Of a stretch of 64,000 nucleotides of DNA, positions 1,897 through 60,700 are shown piece by piece. The stretch lies in the NCBI RefSeq assembly GCF_964355755.1, contig NC_092679.1:19272932-19336931 (forward strand), given 5' to 3'. Position 1 is the stretch's first letter; each line of letters begins with the position of its first letter. The notes beneath the pieces were generated by a model. It searched no databases and was not told the DNA's origin. It saw only the letters and a program-made list of their open reading frames with translations. The position numbers and the translations under genes are program-made. This DNA is from Antedon mediterranea. Its lineage: Eukaryota > Echinodermata > Crinoidea > Comatulida > Antedonidae.

Positions 1897-4800
1897 CTCC
1901 GTTCATGTAGTTTCCAAAGGTCAATATAATTCCACAAATTGTTTCAACTTCTGGACTATGTAAAAGCATCTACAAATAAAAAAAGATGCATTATAAGTGT
2001 TACTACAATTGCTGCAGTAAATTTATCACTACAGAACAATGTATATTAGACTAAAGCTCTGTCCACACTATCAAACTTTATGTGATGTGCCTATATACGG
2101 ACAGGATGATATTGATGATACCATATTTGAGCATATCACTACCATATTTGGGCACACATTTTTGTCAAACTAGTTTGATAGACAGAGCTTTAGAATCAAA
2201 TAATCATATGGGAATAAAAATCAAATGTAAACAAAAGTAACACATTTTTACACAGTAGAAGGACTTTGGATGCTTTCATTTGGAAATGGTACTGTAGATG
2301 ACGGAAAAACATTAGATCTACAAAATACAGTTCAAATAATAAACAGAATGGGGTATACGTGTGCCCAAATATGGTAGTGATATGCCTAAATATAGTAGTG
2401 ATTTTGAGATCATCCTGTCCATATATGGGCAGATCACATTTTTTTTTCACATTAAGTTTGATAGTGTAGATAGAGCTTTAGACAGGATTTGAACCCCGGA
2501 TCCTCTATAATACATACCTTTGAAACTTCATGGAGGTTCTTAACCCTGGATGCTATATCTTGCAGACTGTCTTTAAATATCTCCTGGTAGGTTAAACAAT
2601 ACACACGATCCTCAAAACTTGGAATTTGCGATAGTTCATATAAAAATCTGAAAGAAAGCACATAAAATAATCCCAAGAACATGATGTATCTATCTATCTA
2701 AAATGTTATTAGTCAGATGTTTGCCTTATTCTTGACCTAATACTACATATATATGATAATTAGGTCAAACTTATGTCCTTAAGATGGCTAAGCTGACGTT
2801 TATACCTCGAGTCCAGGATGGGGATGTGGCCTAGGACTATATGTCCAGGAATATTCCAATACATGTGTTATAGTAAATACTACTGCTGTACTACTACTAT
2901 TAAAAGTTTCTTTTTCTTTTAAAACATACTGTTCTGGTTTGTCTAGTGATACATCTGGTTTCTTCTTGCAATGTTTTTGAATTAGTTTCAGCTCTTCTGG
3001 TTGTGGTCTCTGCAATTAAAACAAAATATATCATAGAAGAATACCTTTTTTACTTACTAACTAATAGAAGGGCTTATTTTACTTTGTTATATAGGGTTTA
3101 CTTACCAGATCATAGAGGGCTGACTTACTAGTTTATAGAGGGCTTACTTACTAGTTTATAGAGGGCTTACTTACTAGCTCATAAAGGCTTACTTACTAGA
3201 TCATAGAGAGCTTACTAAATACTAGATTATAGAAGGCTTACTTACTAGCTCATAGAGGGCTTCAAGGTTTTCAAGATCCAACACTGAAGAATCAAGGTTA
3301 AGAACAGCAGATTCTATGTCCGACATCTCCGCATGTAAGCTGGACATGAGGATACCAACGGCTTGGGATCGCTTACTGTCTAATAATTTGGCCACCTGAA
3401 AAAAGGGTCATCAGAAATTTTAAAAGAATATTTGTTATCAATAGAAAAGATTTGTTCAAACTTGCACAACCAATAAAATGAGAACCGGTTTAAAAAATGT
3501 AAAGCATTAATTGTATTATTATTGTTATTGTATTATTATCATATTTTTATGTGGCATTCAAACTTCTATACCTATGGGTCATGTTCAGTTCACACTGTCT
3601 GGCTAACGTTACTTAAACCAAAAATTCAATGATTTTTTCCCCAAATACACACAATAGAGTTGAAACGCACCTTAAGCTTCCATTTTAAACATTTAAGAAT
3701 TGGTTTTGTTATATAATATTTTAAAAGTTCAAAAGTTTGTTTGTATAAGTTTGGAAGTATACATGCAATAAAAATGAATTTAATACAAACTGAAAACGTT
3801 TTAAAGGATTAAAAATATATAAAGCTATGTCTACACTATCAAACTAGTTTGACAAAAAATGTGTGATGTGTTCAAATATGGTAGTGATATGTTTAAATAT
3901 GGTAGTGATATGTTCAAATATGGTAGTGATATGTTTAAATATGGTAGTGATATGTTTAAATATGGTAGTGATATGTTCAAATATGGTAGTGATATGTTTA
4001 AATATGGTAGTGATATGTTCAAATATGGTAGTGATATGTTTAAATATGGTAGTGATATGTTTAAATATGGTAGTGATATGTTCAAATATGGTAGTGATAT
4101 GTTTAAATATGGTAGTGATATGTTTAAATATGGTAGTGATATGTTTAAATATGGTAGTGATATGTTCAAATATGGTAGTAAGTGATATGACATCATCCTG
4201 TCCATATATGGGCACATAATATTTTTTTTGTCAGATAAAGTTTGATATTGTAGACAGAGCTTAAGAAAGAAGAAATTACCAATTTAGAGCTTAAGAACGT
4301 TAATTAAAATAATGTATTTAGAAATTATTAATATTTGGAAATTATGATATCATTTTTCTTAAACAAACCTTCTTTGTCTTTTGTTTAGCTTCATATGTAT
4401 CTGATAAAGCCTTCTTTTTCGTTAATAGTTTCTTACTGAATAGACCTTCAAATTCACTGGAGTCTATTTCTAAATCATCAAGCTTTTTCCACAAACATGT
4501 TTCTCTGAAGAAAAAAAACAAATTTGTAAATTTTATATTGGTTCAAAAACAAGTGAAATCATCCATTATATGAATTATTCATATATGCATGCAAACGGCA
4601 AATACTGTATTACCATGGACCTATAATAGGTCCATGGTATTACAAATATTTATCCACAATTTTGGCTTTCCACGGATTAGAATTTCTCAATTTTCTTTCA
4701 AATTAATAATAAACTACATGTATTTTTTTTTGTTATCTGTACAATGAATTCTTAGACTAAGGTTCTTTATTTGCTATGGATATTATGATTTAATTATTCA

Positions 4801-7800
4801 GAAATAAAAAGATGAATAAATGAATAAATACAAAAGTATACTTACAATGTAAATTTATTGACAGTTTTTAGTTTTTTAAGTTGAATTCTTGTCCAATACA
4901 ATGGTTTCATAGGCACTGATGGTTCTACGATTTTCTTAAGCTTCTCTGAATCAGGAGTGACTGCCCCTCCTCCAGGAGGTGGTGGGGCACCAGGAGGGGG
5001 AGGTGCACCTGGAGGCAGAGGTACGCCAGGTGGTGGTGGTGGTGGTGGAGGTGCACCACCAGGTAATGGAGGAGGAGGTGGTACACCACCAGGTAGAGGA
5101 GGTGGCGGTGGCACTCCACCTGGGAGAGGCGGCGGTGGTGGAATTACTCCTCCTGGGGGTGCCGGAGGTGGGGGTGGTGGCGGTATAACAGACGTGGAGG
5201 GTGTAACAAATTGTGAGCTGTCTTGTTTTCCTTCAAACAGTTTAATATGATCGTCCATAGCGGTTCTGTCAATTCCAATAGTCTCTGTTTCGACGGCTTT
5301 GTCAACAAGTTCTACTTTCTTTTTTTGGTTAGATTTTGATTGGACTATTGCCAATTGTGAGCTAATTATCATCACATCCTCTTTTAATACGTTTATCTCT
5401 GATGTGTGCTCATCCCTAAGTAATGATACTGCATTATCCTGCTCTTCCTGAAATATAAATTACATTTAAAATAAATAGTATATAAATATAAATTGATAAG
5501 GCAAAGATTCAGTTTGATTTATTTATCATTATGATTTATATAGTGCCTTTCCATAATTTGATAATTTTAGGCTAAATCACTGTACAGTCAACCCAAACAT
5601 ATGAAAGACTTACTTGAAACTTAGAAAAAAGATGAGTTTCAAAATTTGTTTAAAGTATTCGTTCATGTACACTAATTCGAAAACTTTATGTGAAAAAAAA
5701 TATGATTTGCCCATATATGGACATGATGATGTCATATCGCTACCGTATTTGCACATATCACTACCATATTTGGGCACATCACAATTTTTTTTGTCTAACT
5801 AGTTTGATAGTTTAGACAGAGCTTAACATAAAAGTATATTACATATTAGCTGTTCAGTTAAAGCCCAGCTGCTTGACTATAAATGTGGGGTTATTAAGAA
5901 ATAAAATATATCTTACTCTAATTTGGTCAATAAGAATTTGGTGTTCTTTCTTTATCCCCATTATAATCTTCTGATGATCTGAAAAAAAATTTAATTAAAA
6001 ATGTGAAACAAAGAAATTAATTATTAATCAGGAAAATATTTAGCTGCTAATAGGAAATAATAAAAGAACAAATACATGAAGCTGTAGCTTGGTTTCTAGC
6101 TTGTTTGCTTCCAATTCCAAGGTCTAGTGGCCGTATTCACTAATCACACTCAAGTGAGATATTTCCCTTAAATATTAAGTATTTCACTTAACTCAATAAA
6201 TAATAAGATAGGAGATTTTTTTTTTAACTTTTAGATTAAGTATTTTCCTCATCCTAAGTGTGAATGGTGAATACGGCCACTGAGTTCAATCTGGCCCTGG
6301 TGTCTGGGTTGTAACACAAGGCTGTATCTACTCACTTAAGCTTTTATTTAGCTTAGCAAAACTCTGAAGTTTACACACACCGAGGCACAAACCATACCAT
6401 ATAAGTGCGAGTAGGTGGCCAAGCGCTTAAGACAGTGGAACCGTAATTACGTAGCCATAACATCGGCAATGGTTCGAGGCTCACTAGCTCCATGGTTTTG
6501 GTCTTCTCGGATAATGACTATAAACCAAGTTCCAGTGAAGAATCTAGCTTTAAAGAACCTAGTACATCTTTCAAGACCAGGATGGGGTGCTTACCCCGGT
6601 GTACTAGTTGACACATCCACTGTCATATGCAGACACTGATCATAACTGGGCCCTTGACTGAAGAGGTCACCCAGTATAAATAAATAATAAACTAAAATCT
6701 ATCCATCCCATAACTTAATGTTGGATGTGTATAAAATTCAAAAAAATCTAACTTTACCTTTCTCAGAGTATTTCAATGAACCAGGGGCTGGTCTTGGTGG
6801 AGGCCAGACAGATGAAAGTTTGCCCGGTGCTAGATTCAGGGGTTGTGATGGACTCGTTACTTGAACACCATGGTTCCAACAGTACATAGCATCCAGCTGA
6901 AATGATTTTAACAATTTATATTGGCTTAATACGAATATTTATTATCATAAATGTGCAATATTGAATAATTATTATAAGTAAGTTTTAATCTTTTATCCAA
7001 TTTTTATCTGAGAATTGAATTGTTTTTGTGTTGTTGCTGTGTTGGTGAAATATTTCTGTGTATTTTTACTGTTTTTTATATATTATATGCCAGTTTATAT
7101 ATTATATGCCAGTTTATATATTATATGCCAGTTTTCAAATAAAAATTCTGTTAATTTCATTTTAGTGGACAAATATAGATACTATGACAATGGCAACAAC
7201 CTAAAAACCGTTTATAAGCCCACTCTGGGATATCTAAACACATTGCAAAGACTTTAAGTATAAACTGTATATCTCAAGTATATGCCCACTCTGGGATATC
7301 TAAACACATTGCAAAGACTTTAAGTATAAACTGTATATCTCAAGTATATGCCCACTCAGGCAGGAACCTAAAAGTGAACCTAATCACTATAACAAGAGTT
7401 CAGGTTCCGTACTCCCAAAGTAACAACAATGATATAAAATAAAAAACTATATAAAAATATTTAAATAACAAATAGACGAATCAACAGTGTCAATATAAAA
7501 TAAACGGATAAAATACATAATAGTCGATTCAACAAAGTCAATATAAAACATGTGATTTAAGTGAATTTAAAAAGCCCATTCTGGGATATATGCCCACTCT
7601 GGGATATCTAAACACATTGCAAAGACTTTAAGTATAAACTGTATATCTCAAGTATATGGCCACTCTGGGATATCTAAACACATTGCAAAGACTTTAAGTA
7701 TAAACTGTATATCTCAAGTATATGCCCACTCTGGGATATCTAAACACATCGCAAAGACTTTAAGTATAAACTGTATATCTCAAGTATATGCCCACTCTGG

Positions 7801-10800
7801 GATATCTAAACACATTGCAAAGACTTTAAGTATAAACTGTATATCTCAAGTATATGCCCACTCTGGGATATCTAAACACATTGCAAAAACTTTAAGTATA
7901 AACTGTATATCTCAAGTATATGCCCACTCTGGGATATCTAAACACATTGCAAAGACTTTAAGTATAAACTGTATATCTCAAGTATATGCCCACTCTGGGA
8001 TATCTAAACACATTGCAAAGACTTTAAGTATAAACTGTATATCTCAAGTATATGCCCACTCTGGGATATCTAAACACATTGCAAAGACTTTAAGTATAAA
8101 CTGTATATCTCAAGTATATGGCCACTCTGGGATATCTAAACACATTGCAAAGACTTTAAGTATAAACTGTATATCTCAAGTATATGCCCACTCTGGGATA
8201 TCTAAACACATTGCAAAGACTTTAAGTATAAACTGTATATCTCAAGTACATGCCCACTCTGGGATATCTAAACACATTGCAAAGGCTTTAAGTATAAACT
8301 GTATATCTCAAGTATATGCCCACTCTGGGATATCTAAACACATTGCAAAGACTTTAAGTATAAACTGTATATCTCAAGTATATGGCCAGTTTGGGATATT
8401 TAAACACACTGTAAACAGGTAAAAAGCATGATTCCACTCCAGATCACTCCAGCAAACTTGTACTGAATGAATGTTTGCTAATAGTTTACAACATGCAGTT
8501 CCTTGGTATGTAAACTTAAAAACTTACACACACACACTATCCTCCACAACTTTTCCTGTAACTCTCTCACCTCCTCCCCCATTCCACCCTCCCATCCCCC
8601 TGGCCCATTACACCCACCCCCTCAACCCCCATATACAAATTTGATTTTTTTTCTTTGGAAGCGACATCATCATGGTTATTATTGTAAGAACATACAATAA
8701 AACCGGAAGATTTTGCTATTATTAAACTTGATGAATTCAAATGTACACAATCAAACTACTTCTTTAGCGGTGCAGTCAATTGTTGAAAACTATTTACTGT
8801 ATATTCAGTATTGTATAGTGTTTGAATATGATGATCCTATGGTCTATTCCATTACCTGAACTACCTACATAATACATTGTTATGACTCAATGGATAAACA
8901 TAGTTAGTTAATAGTTTAAATATCAATTTTGAATAAAGGGAGTGTAGGAGTGCAGTATTAAAGCATTAAGCCATTTACAAGCAGTTTGTCATTAGAATGG
9001 AGGCCTTAGATTTAAGCACTAAAATAATTGTTGAAATTCACAAAGATGAATCGCATTTGTGTACATGTCATGAACTGACAGGAGACGATGACAGATTACC
9101 TTACATTAAACAATCAGGAAGTTTAATCAACTCTGGACAAAACATTGGGTATGGAGAAATTAAAGAACAACCAACTGAAATGATCAAGCAACAAGTGGAA
9201 ACATCAAGAAAAACGGAAACAAATCAATTGTTTACCTATCAACGTTCCACAACAGGCAAGAAAAAGATGGTCGCACTTGATCTACGTGTACACAGAAAGA
9301 ACACGAAACCTGCATTTAAAATTCCACAAGAGAAATTTCAACAGAAGAAAGTTGTGATAGATGCTGTAAATGATGATCTAATGAATAAATCACTGCGAGA
9401 AAAGACTAAGAAAAACCAAGCAATACCGCAGCACGTTAAGAATCAACTGATTAATGCGTATGAGGACGTTAATATGCAGTATACGTGCATCGCTGACAAG
9501 TTGGGAATAAATAGATCTACAGCTGGAAGCATTATAAGACGATACAGAGTAAAGAACAAAATTGCTGTTAAGAAATGTCATCAATCGGTAACATTTACGA
9601 ATGAACTGTTGTAGAGGATTGTTGTTGTTGTTCTGAGGGCCTCATGTATGTCAGCCATGTTGTTGTGAGTTACACTCATGATCCATGATTTAAAATAGGG
9701 GGTGGAGAGGATTGTTGTTGTTCTGAGGGCCTCATTTATGTCAGCCATGCTGTTTTGAGTTACACTTGTTCAAGAAATAACATAAATAATGCGTACATAT
9801 CAATGTGGCATATGCTCACATCAAATTCAAAAGTGACATTTTTTACTCTGTAGCAGTAGCTATTAAAATTGTTTAGGGGGAGGGGGGATATTTTAAAATT
9901 GGGTGTAGGGTCTAAAAATGGCAAAATTTATGCCCTCATCCTTCCCTTTGATTCTGCCTTTGTAGTGTAAGACCCATCTTCCACCCCTTGCACCCAACAT
10001 TGTTTTGGATTAATACTTAAGTATCAACATTTTGTTTGACCTGTTATCATTGTGGATAGAAGACTTTAAATTGTTGGGTTTTTACTTACATGACTTGTAA
10101 TGATGTTTGTATTTTAATTTTAAGTTACCTAAAGCTCTGTCTACACTATCAAACTTTATGTGACAAAAAATGTTATGTGCCCATATATGGACATGATAAT
10201 GTCATATCGGTACCATATTTGGGTATATCACTACCATATTTGGGAATATTACTACCATATTTGGGAATATCACTACCATATTTGGGTATATCACTACCAT
10301 ATTTGGGAATATCACTACCATATTTGGGTATATCACTACCATATACTGCACATCACACTTTTTTTTAAACATTTGTTCTGGTATTTGTATGCGTTTTGTT
10401 CTTACCCACCTTTTAATTGGCGAGTTCCTTTTTGCTGTTGGTTGGTTTTGGAAATAAAATAAAAATAACTAGTTTGATAGGGTGGACAGAGCTTAAGGTC
10501 CGATTGAGTGATTGAGCGACCCTCGTTGGATAACAATAGAGTAGTATATTATAGGCTAGATATTCAGGGATTTATGGGTGGTAGACATAAAAATAAGCTA
10601 ATGGAAGATTGTACAATTTTAGACTATTTAAAAAACAATTTAGGCTGTTCTCTGCTTTCAAAAATACAACTACATCCTACCTGCAATTCATTTGTACCAA
10701 TTTATAAATCCAATTAAACATTTAAAAAACTGTATAATTATTCGCAATGTCTATACTCTGTCCTTGATACTATACTACAAATGGGCCTGACTGCGAAACC

Positions 10801-13800
10801 AACAATGTGTGTACATTGTGTGAAACAAATCTGAGATTAAATTCATATTAATATTTTGCATTAATTAACTGTTGTTGTGTTATGTATTGTTATTGGGTGT
10901 GATGTTGCATGTGTCATTATTGATTGCTATTGGTACACTCCATTGATGACTAAAGCGTTTAACGTTACGCATGACTGACTTCTCCTGTTTGTGGTAGCGG
11001 GTAACGAAGCATGACTGACTTCTCGTGTTTGTGGTAGGAGGTAACGAAGCATTCCATCAACAGTATAAGTTCGAAAATGAGAATAATAAATTAATTACAC
11101 AAACCAATAGTGGTGTTAATGGTCTGTAAGTCTTCCTTAGCTTTACCTGGATAAACCGACATAGGCCTTTCCCCTTCGAAGGTAGAACATAACTCAAAAA
11201 GAGTATGTATGGGCGTTGTCGCCAATCTGAGGACGTGGGACACAGATACCACTGTCTTGGAGGGAAATTTTTAAATTTTTTGTACTTTCAGTATGTTCTC
11301 CTCTCGAAGGGGAAAAGGCCTGTCGGTTTATCCAGGTAAAGTTAGTCACGAAATAGACTAAATAAAATACCGCTACAAATACAATAGAACTTCTATTTAG
11401 GAAAGATTTTCAGAACCCAACAAAGTTTCCCCTTATAGGAACTCCCTTTGAATAGGGATTGATCGTACCAATAAAATTGCGTTATTCACATGAATGCATT
11501 TCTTAATAGGGGTGTCTCCCCTGAATATTCGTGCATTTATTAAGAACATAAATAAATCAAATGAATGCAATAACCAACGACCTACAATTTAATTATTGTG
11601 CGCATGCAAGCAAGTTGGGACGTGCTGCTTCTCTCTAAACCTCAACGCAGGTTAGGGTATTTCTAGCTGAGGTGACAACAACAACAAATCGATTGACATG
11701 ACCTAACCTATTCCTAAGGGTCGTTGCAATTTGAAAGTCTACTTTCGCATCCACATAGCAGTTATATCAATCAAAGCTCCCAGTATCCTAGAAAGGCTGG
11801 GCAACCTATTCTAGCTACTGGCTGCAGCTCTTTGTGCTACTGTACCAATTGTTACTCCTGGGTAGAAAACTTTCTTTACCATGAACATGGATACTCAAAC
11901 CCACAATAAAATTGATGTAATATTCAAATAAAATAATACATGGCTGCCAGTAGTCTATTGCACTCTCTAAATACGAAAGAAGTAAACTATAAGTTAACTG
12001 AGACATGGTACCTGAAGCTGTAGACTGGACATTGCTAGTAATGAATCCAGGCATCAAACACATACAAACTACAAACCTAAGGCATATACATACATTCAGC
12101 TAATAATTGTGTAAAATTGTCCAAGATATTCATAAAATATTACACATGAATTAATGACTATTTAGGGTATTTTGAATGATTTCGATAATTTATTAACGAT
12201 ATATACTTAAATGTTTCCGCAAACATTTCAAAATAATCTTTTGATGGATGGGGAAAATGTCTGGTCGTGAACCGACATTACTGTAATGGATGAAAAAGGT
12301 TATTGCGTAAAACAAAAAATGCAAAGTAATGCAAACTGGTTATGAGTGTATGATTAGGCGGCCTGGGCATAAAAGTTTAATAGTGTAGACAGAGCTGAGG
12401 GTCTCCATTAAAAGGGGGTTTTTAACTAGACAAGTGGACCAGTAAAATTATATTTTTACTGGTCCTCCACTCCTTTTCGGCCTATACCCTCATATTTTTG
12501 AAAACAATAAATTTATGCTGCCCAGATTAATGGAAAATCGCAACATACTCTGTATAGAAATTATGCTTTTTACAGATATTATTATTATTATTATTGATAT
12601 TTAAATTTTATTATATTGATTATAAAAGATTTTGTTGAAATTTTGAAAGATTACTTCTTATTCAACTGGTCCACTAAGCATTCAACTGGCGGACCAGTGT
12701 TAATTAAAACACTCTTAAGCTCTGTCTACACTATCAAACTAGTTGGACAAAAAAGTGTGATATGCCTATATATGGTAATGATATGCTTAAATATGGTAGT
12801 GATATGCCATCATCATGTCCATATATGGGCACATCACATTTTGTTATCACATAAAGTTTGGTAGTGTAGGCAGAGCTTTAGAGGGTGCAGGATTATACTG
12901 GATTCCTAATAATGGTATTTAGCAATGTCTTTGTGTCAAAGTGTGGGCTAAACTAATAGGGGTGGGATTATACTCAATCTAGGTCGTATACTATGGAACG
13001 CCGTTTACGCAACATTTTGATGATATGAATTTTATGACGCGATATGTGAATGAAATGCATCGATATGAATTAAATGGTGCGATATATGAATGAAATGTTT
13101 TGAATTGAATGCTTTGAATTGAATATTTTGAATGAAATGTTTTGAATGAAATGTTTTGAATGAAATGTTTTGAATGAAATGTTTTGAATGAAATGTTTTG
13201 AATGAAATGTTTTGAATGAAATGTTTGAATTGAATTGAAAAGTCAAACTATTGGTGGCGTATGTCATTCTCGCTCGCGATTATTTTCTCAACCTCTTAGG
13301 CCTAAGCCTGGGTACCCTCATCTCCTTTCTTCCACGCTGCCTTTACAGAGAATCCTAACAGACCTGGGTTCGGAAATATGTATTCCAATGTTTCAGGTCT
13401 GTTAGAGAGTCTCTGTAAAGGATTCATATTGATGACAGCGTTGAAAGGAGATGAGGGTACCCATGCTTAGGCCTATTAAGAGGTTGAAAAAAAATCGCGA
13501 GCGGGAATGACATACGCCGCCAATAGTTTGACTTTTCAATTCAATTCAAACATTTCATTCAAAACATTTAATTCAAAACATTTCATTCAAAACATTTCAT
13601 TCAAAACATTTCATTCAAAACATTTCATTCAAAACATTTCATTCAAAACATTCAATTCAAAGCATTCAATTCAAAACATTTCATTCATATATCACGCCAT
13701 TCAATTCATATCGATGCATTTCATTCACATATCGCGTCATAAAATTCATATCATCGAAATGTTGCGTAAACGGCGTTCCATAGTATACAGTAGTATACAT

Positions 13801-27007: not shown

Positions 27008-27174
27008 AAGCTCTGTCTACACATCAAACTAGTTTGAGTGTGATATGCCCAAATATGGTAGCAATATGTCCAAATATGGTAGTGATATGACATCATCATG
27101 TCCATATATGGGTACAGTACATCACATTTTATTTTTCACATAAAGTTCGATAGTGTACTGTATAGACAGAGCTT
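27008..27174. mobile_element. MITE-A copy
   Basis: AAGCTCTGTCTACACATCAA and ATAGACAGAGCTT are flanked by TAA on both sides. The interior has two CAAATATGGTAG units. Confidence 0.9.
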
Positions 27175-51724: not shown

Positions 51725-54700
51725 TCAGTCATAGATTTGCTGATAGCCGCCGATTGAAATTCTGCCTGAGAAAAGTAATGGTGGCGTGGTCCCAGGCATG
51801 ATGTACTGCCCCCCTGACGAGTAACTGTTGCTACGGATAATCGTCCCGTAGCCCAACTGCGGGGTCCCGTTTATCGATGTAGACGGTGAATGCATATCAG
51901 TAGAAAGGCTGTCAAAACAGAACAAAATATAAGGTTTAAATACATCTTGATTGAATAAAACATAATAAATACATTTCAAATTGAAAACTATAAAATAAAT
52001 AAGAAGCAAATTAAATATTTCACAAGCAATTATAAGAATGGCTTTTATTTCATACTATCATGGCAATAAAATTGAATTGTGGGTAAAATAGTATTATATT
52101 ATATAGTAACAAATAAAAAAAAAATTGTATAATGTGGTTTCATCATTATGTATTAATAATTATTGATACTAATAGGCAGGGTGGGATTGTCATTAAAATG
52201 AAAAGTAAAAGTAACTGAACATGCATTAGAACTCGTCAATACATTTCTAATATAATACTAACGAAAGCCTTGGCCAAGGGTCAGAAAATATTAAATAAGT
52301 GAGGATTATATTGAAATTATGGGATCACCCAATACAAGTACCACAAGATAAAATATGCAATTCATATTTAACTGAAGAAGTCACTATAAAGCTCTGTCTA
52401 CACTATCAAACTTTATGTGACAAACAAAATGTGATGTGCCTAGGGACATGATAATGTCATATCACTACCATATTTGGGCATATCTCTACCATATTTGGGC
52501 ACATCACAGTAGTTTGATAGTGTAGACAGAGCTTTACATTCAATCAAATAATTTATGTATTGTAGGATGAGAAACGTCATTGAAATAAAAAGTTAAAGCA
52601 AATTAACACATGTCTGATCTCATTTATATGGAAATGTAAACATTCATGCATTCTATACACTATCTACTTATAAATTCACTTTCTGGTTGTTTCTTTTTTT
52701 AACGTTGACTTTTTAAATACCATATTTGCTTAAATTGTCTGTGTATCAATCTATTGTTATCCACAGTATTGATTTTAGTCATTTGGTTTGGAAAATACAA
52801 AATGTCTAATATTATTTCTATGGTTATGGTTTCATTTGATATTAAAATGAAAGAAATTTGTTGAAAAAATCTGTTATGTTTAAATTAATACAAATTGGTT
52901 CTTTCCATATACAGTAGTACAGTATGTGTTAGATAAAATAGGGCTTCGTAGTACAAGAAATCTGTATCTTAAGTCTGAAGTAATGTTTGGTGGGCAGGGG
53001 TAGGGTGTTGGGAAGTCTGCATTTTCAGAACCATAGAAAAAGCTTGATCAACCAAACACATCTAGTATTCAACTAATCATGTGTAAATTTTATCTTCTTT
53101 TAGGGCAGGGGTGGGGTGTTGAGAAGTCTGCATTTCCAGAACCATAGAAAAAGCTTGATCAACTAAACACATCTAGTATATATTCAACTATTTGTGTAAA
53201 TTTTATCTTCTTTTAGGGCAGGGGTGGGGTGTTGGGAAGTCTGCATTTCCAGAACCATAGAAAAAGCTTGATTAACCAAACACATCTAGTATTCAACTAA
53301 TCATGTGTAAATTTTATCTTCTTTTAGGGCAGGGTGGGGTGTTGAGAAGTCTGCATTTCCAGAACCATAGAAAAAGCTTGATCAACCAAACACATCTAGT
53401 ATATATTCAACTATTTGTGTAAATTTTATCTTCTTTTAGGGCAGGGGTGGGGTGTTGAGAAGTCTGCATTTCCAGAACCATAGAAAAAGCTTGATCAACC
53501 AAACACATCTAGTATATATTCAACTATTTGTGTAAATTTTATCTTCTTTTAGGGCAGGGGTGGGGTGTTGGGAAGTCTGCATTTTCAGAACCATAGAAAA
53601 AGCTTGATCAACCAAACACATCTAGTATTCAACTAATCATGTGTAAATTTTATCTTCTTTTAGGGCAGGGGTGGGGTGTTGAGAAGTCTGCATTTCCAGA
53701 ACCATAGAAAAAGCTTGATCAACAAAGCACATCTAGTATATATTCAACTAATCATGTGTAAATTTTATCTTCTTTTAGGGCAGGGGTGGGGTGTTGGGAA
53801 GTCTGCATTTCCAGAACCATAGAAAAAGCTTGATCAACAAAGCACATCTAGTATATATTCAACTAATCATGTGTCAATTTTATCTTCTTTTAGTTTTATT
53901 GTTCATGTTCTGAAAGTTTCATTTTAAACTCATTGCATACAGGAAACTAGGAAAACCTTGTAAGATTGTAAGTAGTACCATTATTAATACTTACTCTGCA
54001 GATGCTGTGTTTGTATTAAACGCTCGGCAAAGATCATCGTCACTATCATATCGTCGTGGGTTGTCAAAGAAATAAGCTTTAGAGGGTGTTCTATTCACAC
54101 TCTTAACTTCTGGTGCAGTCTGAAAAAAAAAATTACAGAAATAATTTTGTCTTCCACATTTTTTAGAAATTAGATGATGATTCTAAATAAAGATTGTAAT
54201 CATGGCTTTCCTCTCGTTATTTGAAGTTAGTTTTATACTACTTTATTTTAGAATTGGCAAAATATATCATGACTCAAATTTCAGTTTTACCTTAAAAAAG
54301 AACATACATATTTCAGTAACCATTTTCTAAATGACAACAGTTCCAAATTTTATAAAGGTACTAAAAAGGTACCAAATATTACGGCAAACAAATTTAACAG
54401 TATCTTATGGACATACAGACGTACAGTAATCTAAGTGGTGGATCCAGGATTTTGCTAACATTAATTAACAGTCTTTCAAAAGTAGATCAAGAAGTAGTTT
54501 ATAATTTAATTTAGCTGTCAAATGACATTACTATAAGGCAGCTATTGCGTACCATACACAAAGTGTATCACTAAAAAATATAATACAACTTTCTGGATGA
54601 TATCTTCTCCAATTTTTCAAAAAAATTCTTGAAGATCATAAACTTAAAGAGCATACATAATTTTTAATGAAATCAAGATTTGCATACTGCAAACTTGAAA

Positions 54701-57700: not shown

Positions 57701-60700
57701 GCTACGAACAATACATCGTAGGCTACGAACAATACATCGTAGGTTACGAACAATACATCGTAGGCTACGAACAATACATCGTAGGTTACGAACAATACAT
57801 CGTAGGTCACAAACAATACATCAGTTTTAAAAATACATGAAAAATGAAGATTAATAAAATAAGATTTTATTAGGCCATTTTGAAGGTTTAATGAAGTTAT
57901 TCACTTCTGTAGAAATAAACGGGAAAAAAAACAAATAAAAATAATTATTTCACTAATATAAAAAGACAAAATAAACTGTTAATTTCAACCAAAAACTCTT
58001 TGTCTGACAGACAATTTTAAAAGTATTTTTTTCAGGTAAATAATTTTTTTCAATCCAGTTATAACAAACTGTCATGTGACAATAAAATGACATATTCCCC
58101 AATATTTAAAAAAAAATTTTTCAGGGGAACAATATAACTTTAACTTCGTTTAACTGTTTATTTGAAAAAGGTCTCAAGATCCTAAATCATTTGTAATTTG
58201 TAGTTTCATATATTAAGTAAGTAAACATGAAACTATATTTTTTGTTATCTTTGTTGAAATTTGAAAATGTGTGTTCTATTCCAAATTTACCAACAAAGGT
58301 GACCTAATTTTTGTACTAAACAATACAACATTATCATTCAATTGAAAATGAAAGTATAGTCAAGTCTAGCTGTTATCTAGTATGAATTACACAACAAATT
58401 TGACAAACAAAAGTACAATAGATTTTGTGAACCATGTTATTTTGAAACCGTTTTAACCACATTCAAACAGATTATAATACTAAATATAGTTAGTCACTTC
58501 AGGATTTTTTTGAAAAAGTTTACAGTTTCAGGAAGTACAGTATGATGTACAGTAGACAAATGTTTTAATATTTTTTTAATTATTTTTACAAAGTATTACA
58601 ATTACATTGCAGTTATTTAAAAGAATAGTGCCTCTGCAGGGAAAAATTTCATTTTAAAATTTTGTTTAGCAATATTGCTAATCAAACTGATTTTTGAGTC
58701 GAGAAACATAGTTTTGTATTGTATTTTTTGCTACACAATTTAAAATATCTGTAGCAAAAAGGTTGTTTTGTATAGCTTTTTGCTATGCTACACTGGCGAA
58801 ATTATTCCCTGCTCTGTTGTGTAAGGAAATAATAAAAGTTATTATCATTATTGTTATTATGCAATTCAATCAATTTTTGGAAAAATATAAAAAAATATTA
58901 AGTAAAGGTAATGACTTATGTGAATGTTGAACCTGGGTGTTATGCTTGATGTACTGTAGCCACCATTGTTTGCTGAGTATTATTCCATTGGGGGCTTTCT
59001 CATGGTATGCTAAGGTTTGACTGTAGCCATAGCATAGCAACCAAATGCTCTGCAGTCAGGCCTATAGCAATCCTACATGAAAGCCCCAGTTGTCTATGGG
59101 TCTACATATCAAGCGGAACATACAGCTTCAACATTAACTGAAAATTCTTTCAGTTATATTAATGTCCCTTTAAAAAAATAATTTTTTAAAGGGTCGTTGT
59201 TGAAATGCCACTTTAATGTCCATATTCACTTTTAATGAAAATTGGATCAGAAAATATGTCTTTACATGAAAAACCTGTAATTTTTAAATTACATGTTTTT
59301 ATGGATGTTATTGTTAAATACTAATTTATACTTGTAATACTTTTCTGCTTTTATTTTTAATATACAGTAGTAGTTATTCTATATTTAAGCTCTGTCTATA
59401 CTTTCAAACTTTATGTGAGAAAAAAACGTGATGTACCATATTTGGGTATATCACTACCATATTTGGGAAAAAACTACCATTATTTGGGCACATCACACTT
59501 TTTTGTCAAACTATTTTGATAGTGTAGACAAAGCTTTAAACAAAAAATTGATACAAAGAAAGTGATGAATTATCTTACCAATCTTGATGCGTATCTTCTG
59601 ACACGGAAAAACATGACGACAATAAGTGTTGGCAGGAACTCCCACAGAAATAATATTATACAGAAAGTTATGAAACGGTATCCTTTTAGATTCCGATAGT
59701 CAGCCTAGAAAAAAATATTATTTGTTAGAACTTTGCTAAAACTGAGTGTTAATTAGGAGTGGGAACATTATTTTTGTTATCCTAGCCACATCCTGTCTAA
59801 AAGCCTTTAGCTTTTCAGTGTTTTAATCTAGAATTTTACACAATTTTTAACCAACTTTTAAAGATGTATTTTCCCCTGAAAACATGAAAAATATAAAATT
59901 TTGAGTATGCCATTTTGTTTTCATGGTACAATATCTTTTTTAAAAGATTTTTATTTGGTTTTCTTATCTTTAATGTATTGTTGTAATGTAAACAAACGCC
60001 TACAAGTTCAAACCACGTAATGTGATTAAGAATAATCGTGACATTAGAACTCACTTGGTCAGAAACATTTGGCCAACTGTACCCAAAATTCTCTTGGTTG
60101 TTGCAGGCCACAGCAATAATGTTGTACGCTGTCCTTGTAAGGTACAGGAACGTAATGATAATGCAGGCTGCTGTTGCATGGCATACTGTTGTTCCCTGAC
60201 AAAAGAAACAAAAAATAAAATAAAACGATCCGTCGGGTTGCAGAACAATAATCATTATTTTAAAAAGACAAATTTTATTAATTTACCGTGCTTATTTATT
60301 AAACTAAGTCTCAATTGAGGCTTAGGGAGTGAAGTTGAAAGAGTTATCAGTTACAAACCCTGGTACTAGGTCAGGATTTATTTATTCTTTCCTCATCTAC
60401 TGTAGGGGCTATTTTTAATCAAATTTAATGACATGAAAGTAGATCCACACTAGTACCCTTTTCACATTGTTTTTGGACTCCGACACAGACTAGGCTAGGG
60501 CATCAACACCAGTGTTTTGTATGGTGTGCACTCCAATGTACTGACACAGACTAGGCTAGGGCATCAACACCAGTGTTTTGTATGGTGTGCACTCCAATGT
60601 ACTGACATAGACCGACACAGACTAGGCTAGGGCATCAACACCAGTGTTTTGTATGGTGTGCACTCCAATGTACTGACACCGACTGACACAGACTAGGCTA

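Follow-up and report, generated by a model that had tools for sequence, protein, structure and literature searches.

A formin gene of the crinoid Antedon mediterranea carries, in an intron within its FH2 domain, a minisatellite whose unit consists of the last bases of the preceding exon together with the 5' splice site that follows them. This array is very probably a mirage, i.e., a boundary minisatellite born by slippage, in which the first donor is the one used and splicing tolerates a ladder of further donors that is otherwise passive. The FH2 part of the gene is encoded on the minus strand of the 64-kb stretch of DNA analysed (the window); from its resemblance to vertebrate FMN1 and FMN2 we take the gene to be of the FMN type. 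The features of the locus are listed in Table 1.

Table 1. Features of the formin exon-intron border in the window. Each donor-anchored copy starts, on the minus strand, at the higher coordinate of its donor GT; offsets (+) are counted from the authentic donor at 3245, and a slash precedes the GT of a donor.
Feature	Position	Strand	Remarks
FH2 exon of the presumed FMN-type formin	3246-3395	-	last 17 nt (3262-3246) form the exonic part of the repeat
Phase-0 intron	3010-3245	-	236 bp, GTAAGT...TTGCAG
Next FH2 exon	2930-3009	-	starts at 3009
23-bp minisatellite	3050-3262	-	TRF counts 9.1 copies, the one at the exon border among them
Authentic donor GTAAGTAAG	3237-3245	-	CTA/GTAAGT
In-frame TAG stop	3222-3224	-	+21, read when splicing bypasses the first donor
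Ladder donor GTAAGC	3210-3215	-	+30
Ladder donor CTA/GTAAGT	3191-3196	-	+49
Ladder donor CTA/GTAAGT	3169-3174	-	+71, after the sole exact intronic CTATGAGCTA
Ladder donor CTA/GTAAGT	3146-3151	-	+94
Ladder donor CTA/GTAAGT	3123-3128	-	+117
Ladder donor CTG/GTAAGT	3100-3105	-	+140, would leave a 96-nt intron
Degenerate ladder donor GTAAAA	3077-3082	-	+163
Last ladder donor TTA/GTAAGT	3052-3057	-	+188, would leave a 48-nt intron

When joined, the two exons encode 120 residues that match PF02181 across the splice (E 3e-27) and align to DAAM1 and mDia1 with no gap at the splice. Because both the match and the ungapped alignment span it, donor 3245 and acceptor 3011-3010 are predicted to be the true border of the intron; in the comparison with FH2 proteins, only donor 3245 fits the colinearity of the protein.

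TRF, run on the window, fitted the array with the 23-bp unit and extended it into the FH2 exon; a second fit had a period of 71 and about three units. The array takes up most of the intron. The unit is made up of the last 17 exonic nucleotides (AAGCCCTCTATGAGCTA) and the donor, and the homology drops off farther up the exon. Successive donor-anchored copies are spaced by 30, 19, 22, 23, 23, 23, 23 and 25 bp; the irregular first intronic copy holds a broken donor, GTATTT, at +23, and a tenth copy, degenerate and without a donor, lies within 3026-3048, ahead of the acceptor. An earlier, sequence-only reading had described the exon end and its donor as copied about eight times into the intron, which agrees with the eight intronic donor copies and with the reach of the TRF array into the exon; the ladder of possible GTAAGT donors inside the FH2 domain that it proposed is likewise present, the hexamer being perfect in six of the eight. 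The coding-like CTATGAGCTA, which that reading said several copies keep, is exact in a single intronic copy (donor 3174). Ungapped identity of the intronic copies to the exon copy ranges from 0.52 to 0.91, and the mean pairwise identity of the formin copies is 0.72 (n=9, ungapped).

The last 17 exonic nucleotides match the intron at three places with two mismatches and at two places with three. Among 8,000 17-mers taken from the window, none matched the intron with two or fewer mismatches and seven did so with three; among 3,000 random 17-mers of local composition, one matched with two mismatches and seven with three. The sharing of the unit between exon and intron is above chance, in keeping with the proposal that exon terminus plus donor formed the founding unit; the comparison of exon end and unit, named beforehand as the point on which that proposal could fail, found the unit in the exon end.

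Reading on from the FH2 exon into the intron gives VSKPSII and then the TAG at +21. This stop is retained by all seven of the downstream donors that were translated (+30, +49, +71, +94, +117, +140 and +188), and because it comes first, each of them would truncate the formin protein and none would insert a peptide. The suggestion that downstream donors insert peptides or shift the frame is therefore to be narrowed: peptides would not be added by any of the seven, and the frame would be shifted without meeting the TAG only by an overlapping donor at +4 (the only such donor, by inspection). Use of the weak GTATTT at +23 would make a stop at the junction itself (also by inspection). An alternative-donor cassette giving protein variants was rejected, none of the seven donors giving an open reading frame.

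Donors were scored with an approximate weight matrix. On this scale the authentic CTA/GTAAGT and four ladder donors all have a score of 7.2, and the CTG/GTAAGT at 3105 reaches 10.6. Since the donor at 3105 outscores the authentic one and four others equal it, strength alone would not pick the first donor; position or exon context must do so, if donor 1 is used.

Since the exonic part of the unit codes for residues within a conserved and colinear part of the FH2 domain, the exon end with its donor is the source, from which the intronic copies derive. Two AAG triplets, the first within the exon (3262-3260) and the second directly behind the GTAAGT (3239-3237), are separated by exactly 23 bp, the arrangement needed for slippage between short repeats. 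Such slippage probably placed tandem copies of the exon end and its donor in the intron, after which unequal exchange would have enlarged the array, the intronic copies drifting and coding constraint holding the exon copy. The spliceosome would take the exon-proximal donor, as protein colinearity suggests; splicing from any ladder donor at +30 or beyond would keep the in-frame TAG and give a truncated, presumably decayed message, and the ladder would hinder correct splicing slightly at most and would otherwise be passive. In view of the high divergence of its copies the array is most likely old, degenerate and tolerated. Since 14.4% of the window consists of tandem repeats, a repeat at this border needs no special cause.

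Two other repeats of the window may be recorded here. Positions 1-1803 are occupied by a 47-bp satellite (38 copies, 97% matches) that runs to the window edge. A 21-bp satellite (ATATCACTACCATATTTGGG-like), perhaps part of a mobile element, forms many short dispersed arrays (3863-4179, 5733-5782, 10204-10344, 12758-12808, 27043-27089, 52458-52507 and 59434-59488).

It is improbable, though compatible with a mirage origin, that the ladder is regulated, with U1 binding across the array sending some of the transcripts to stop-containing isoforms and array length tuning formin dosage. The intact state of six intronic donors, the score of one of them above the authentic donor and the stop common to the seven tested donors speak for such regulation. 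The RNA of the array region is less folded than all of 200 shuffles (z +2.5), and the donors would therefore be accessible; for the same reason folding is no obvious mask over the ladder, and this idea was rejected. Under one of two alignment readings of the irregular copy the donor hexamers seem to carry fewer changes than other positions of the unit (Fisher P 0.024, and 0.16 under the other), but by column permutation the donor columns are not significantly more conserved under either reading (P 0.09 and 0.21); the ladder may be under some constraint. A stop ahead of the next ladder donor, considered as a sign of selection, was rejected, being present in 4/4 true frames and also in 5/8 other frames of four genes and thus not particular to the true frame. 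The mirages of lancelets are stated by their describers not to disturb regular splicing (PMC3087553, PMC3902484). Evidence against passivity comes from human genes: at a 68-bp duplicated border in CBS the distal of the two sites is reported to be strongly favoured (PMC2630376), and boundary repeats of human paralogues are reported to be able to change splicing (PMC2812944).

That the intron is young, having arisen by tandem duplication within an FH2 exon that was formerly unbroken and retaining the array as a remnant, is very unlikely. Repeats do fill most of the intron, and degenerate repeats within such introns are a stated prediction of the globin paper in the mirage work (PMC3087553). The position was compared in the six other formin genes of the genome whose FH2 match reaches it, with borders judged by eye: three read through with no border near (L003, L006 and L008), whereas in three an exon border seems to lie no more than about five residues away (L002, L004 and L005), and an intron near here may for that reason be old. 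Moreover, exon sequence is copied neither in the donor half of the unit nor in the ~40 nt that precede the acceptor. No TRF array overlaps any of the 24 other FH2 matches, the nearest arrays on their 3' side lying 54 and 81 nt beyond the match. In the diaphanous-like formin L003 an acceptor-like unit (TTTCTCTTTTAG) is repeated about 22 times at 654-1133 on the minus strand of its locus; this array stops 23 nt short of the last FH2 match, on its upstream side, and the genuine acceptor seems to be a different AG.

That the assembler stacked copies which do not exist is extremely unlikely: tandem arrays are error-prone, and one amphioxus mirage is reported as apparently aberrantly assembled in a draft genome (PMC3087553), but the formin copies differ from one another and are irregularly spaced, unlike the stutter of one read.

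The boundary array of the formin has close counterparts elsewhere in the same genome. A partly hand-picked sample of 19 arrays with a donor motif was drawn, consisting of eight from AGGTAAGT (the first ones listed among 174 hits), two of the five listed for GTAAGT, four from AGGTGAGT and five from AGGTATGT, the last two lists being represented by one array per repeat family; all nine arrays of the scrambled motif GATAGAGT served as controls. Nine of the 19 were compared with Pfam and four of these also with PDB sequences; among the controls only L036 was compared, and it yielded no Pfam family. In two of the 19 an exon with a relative of solved structure ends in the repeat unit. One belongs to a homologue of DHX8, which is a spliceosomal helicase (E 1e-19; 37-bp unit, 29 exonic nucleotides shared), and the other to a TDP2-like gene (E 1e-10; 31-bp unit, 23 exonic nucleotides shared). 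At both loci the reading frame continues from the exon-proximal donor into the next homologous exon, the agreement across the junction being judged by eye against the human sequence, and an in-frame stop lies ahead of the next ladder donor. The DHX8-like array (L010; L039, G000:C1:17776200-17778800) stands at the intron start, combines the exon end with CAG/GTAAGT and contains 22 AGGTAAG sites; the TDP2-like array (L012; L038, G000:C1:41207950-41210800) combines the exon end with GAG/GTAAGT and contains 26 donors, at a mean identity of 0.96.

A weaker form was seen at a GH31 glucosidase exon (L018; L040, G000:C1:1662000-1664600; E 5.5e-9), where the authentic donor is followed by two copies and only four exonic nucleotides belong to the unit. 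L022 and L024 look similar and matched no Pfam family, and L028 had one Pfam match, below its cut-off. L017 is open in frame, but its best PDB hit, to a designed protein (E 0.13), is not convincing, and L019 contains a lipoxygenase-like exon below the Pfam cut-off, with the ladder, by eye, outside the exon; no recognisable exon was found at the remaining sampled arrays other than L023 and L025. The 24-bp array of L024 (G000:C1:239100-239850) is open as repeated YVPPAGAR and may be a coding repeat instead of a ladder. A 34-bp GTGAGT array, apparently with a short exon end, occurs at several sites on C3 (L023 and C3:20.09-21.65 Mb), recurring as if amplified with a gene family.

Stop-free frames of at least 30 residues ending at the first copy were found at 14/18 of the donor arrays measured (L026 left out) and at 2/9 controls; since a search by donor motif already favours exon ends, the result shows that such ladders recur and not that they are enriched. 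Genome-wide hits, each given against its reversed-pattern control, numbered 6358 and 4736 for GTAAGT, 174 and 223 for AGGTAAGT, 270 and 49 for AGGTGAGT, 370 and 110 for AGGTATGT, and 75 and 96 for the scrambled GATAGAGT. Because these counts are mixed and a few large arrays dominate them, no genome-wide excess of donor ladders is claimed.

Mirages are known from the lancelet genes Adh3, the globins BflGb6 and BflGb9, TnC and PGBD5, and have been proposed to seed introns (PMC3087553, PMC3902484). They are described there as minisatellite-like tandem duplications of an exon-intron boundary with splice signals in many units, at the 5' or the 3' boundary and with units of 10-72 bp in Adh3. At the formin locus, too, the unit spans the exon-intron boundary and the copies contain splice signals, whereas the host gene is a different one, presumably of the FMN type, and the copies are old and diverged. 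Human CBS has a 31-bp VNTR, c.1444_1467+7(16_21), with 16-21 copies, polymorphic in people, whose name implies 24 exonic and seven intronic nucleotides per unit (PMC2630376) and which is listed as exon 13-intron 13 (PMC1395315). Going by that name, each copy holds an exon end and a donor, as in the formin; unit length and copy number differ, and the two origins are independent. In a potato RdRp gene a tandem duplication likewise spans an intron-exon border, so that splice signals are duplicated with it, but is described as a single, acceptor-side duplication that makes a new intron, unlike the donor-side formin array (PMC4974935). The boundary minisatellites of human paralogues can also supply splice sites, and are reported, unlike the formin array, from genes of segmental duplications with transcript evidence of altered splicing (PMC2812944).

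The view that expansion of an exon-intron border into a donor array is rarely described was too strong, since lancelet mirages and the CBS VNTR share the architecture, as do the DHX8- and TDP2-like loci of the same genome. The formin array is a further member of the known mirage class and is ordinary in kind; of greater interest, as a by-product, is that donor ladders recur in this genome, two loci having 22 and 26 near-identical donors. The formin is thereby added to a class that is known but little catalogued and that recurs within one genome (DHX8, TDP2). Such near-identical ladders offer a clean natural test of how a 5' splice site is chosen beyond donor sequence, and of whether boundary arrays seed new introns. 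We put forward, as a doubtful but wider proposal, that boundary minisatellites form a genome-wide class whose ladders hold as many as 26 donors of equal or greater strength, from which the exon-proximal one is regularly taken, some of these arrays, including that of the FMN-type formin, acting as length-tunable sinks into stop-containing forms. If such a genome-wide class exists, its loci would be natural experiments on the choice of one among many identical 5' splice sites.
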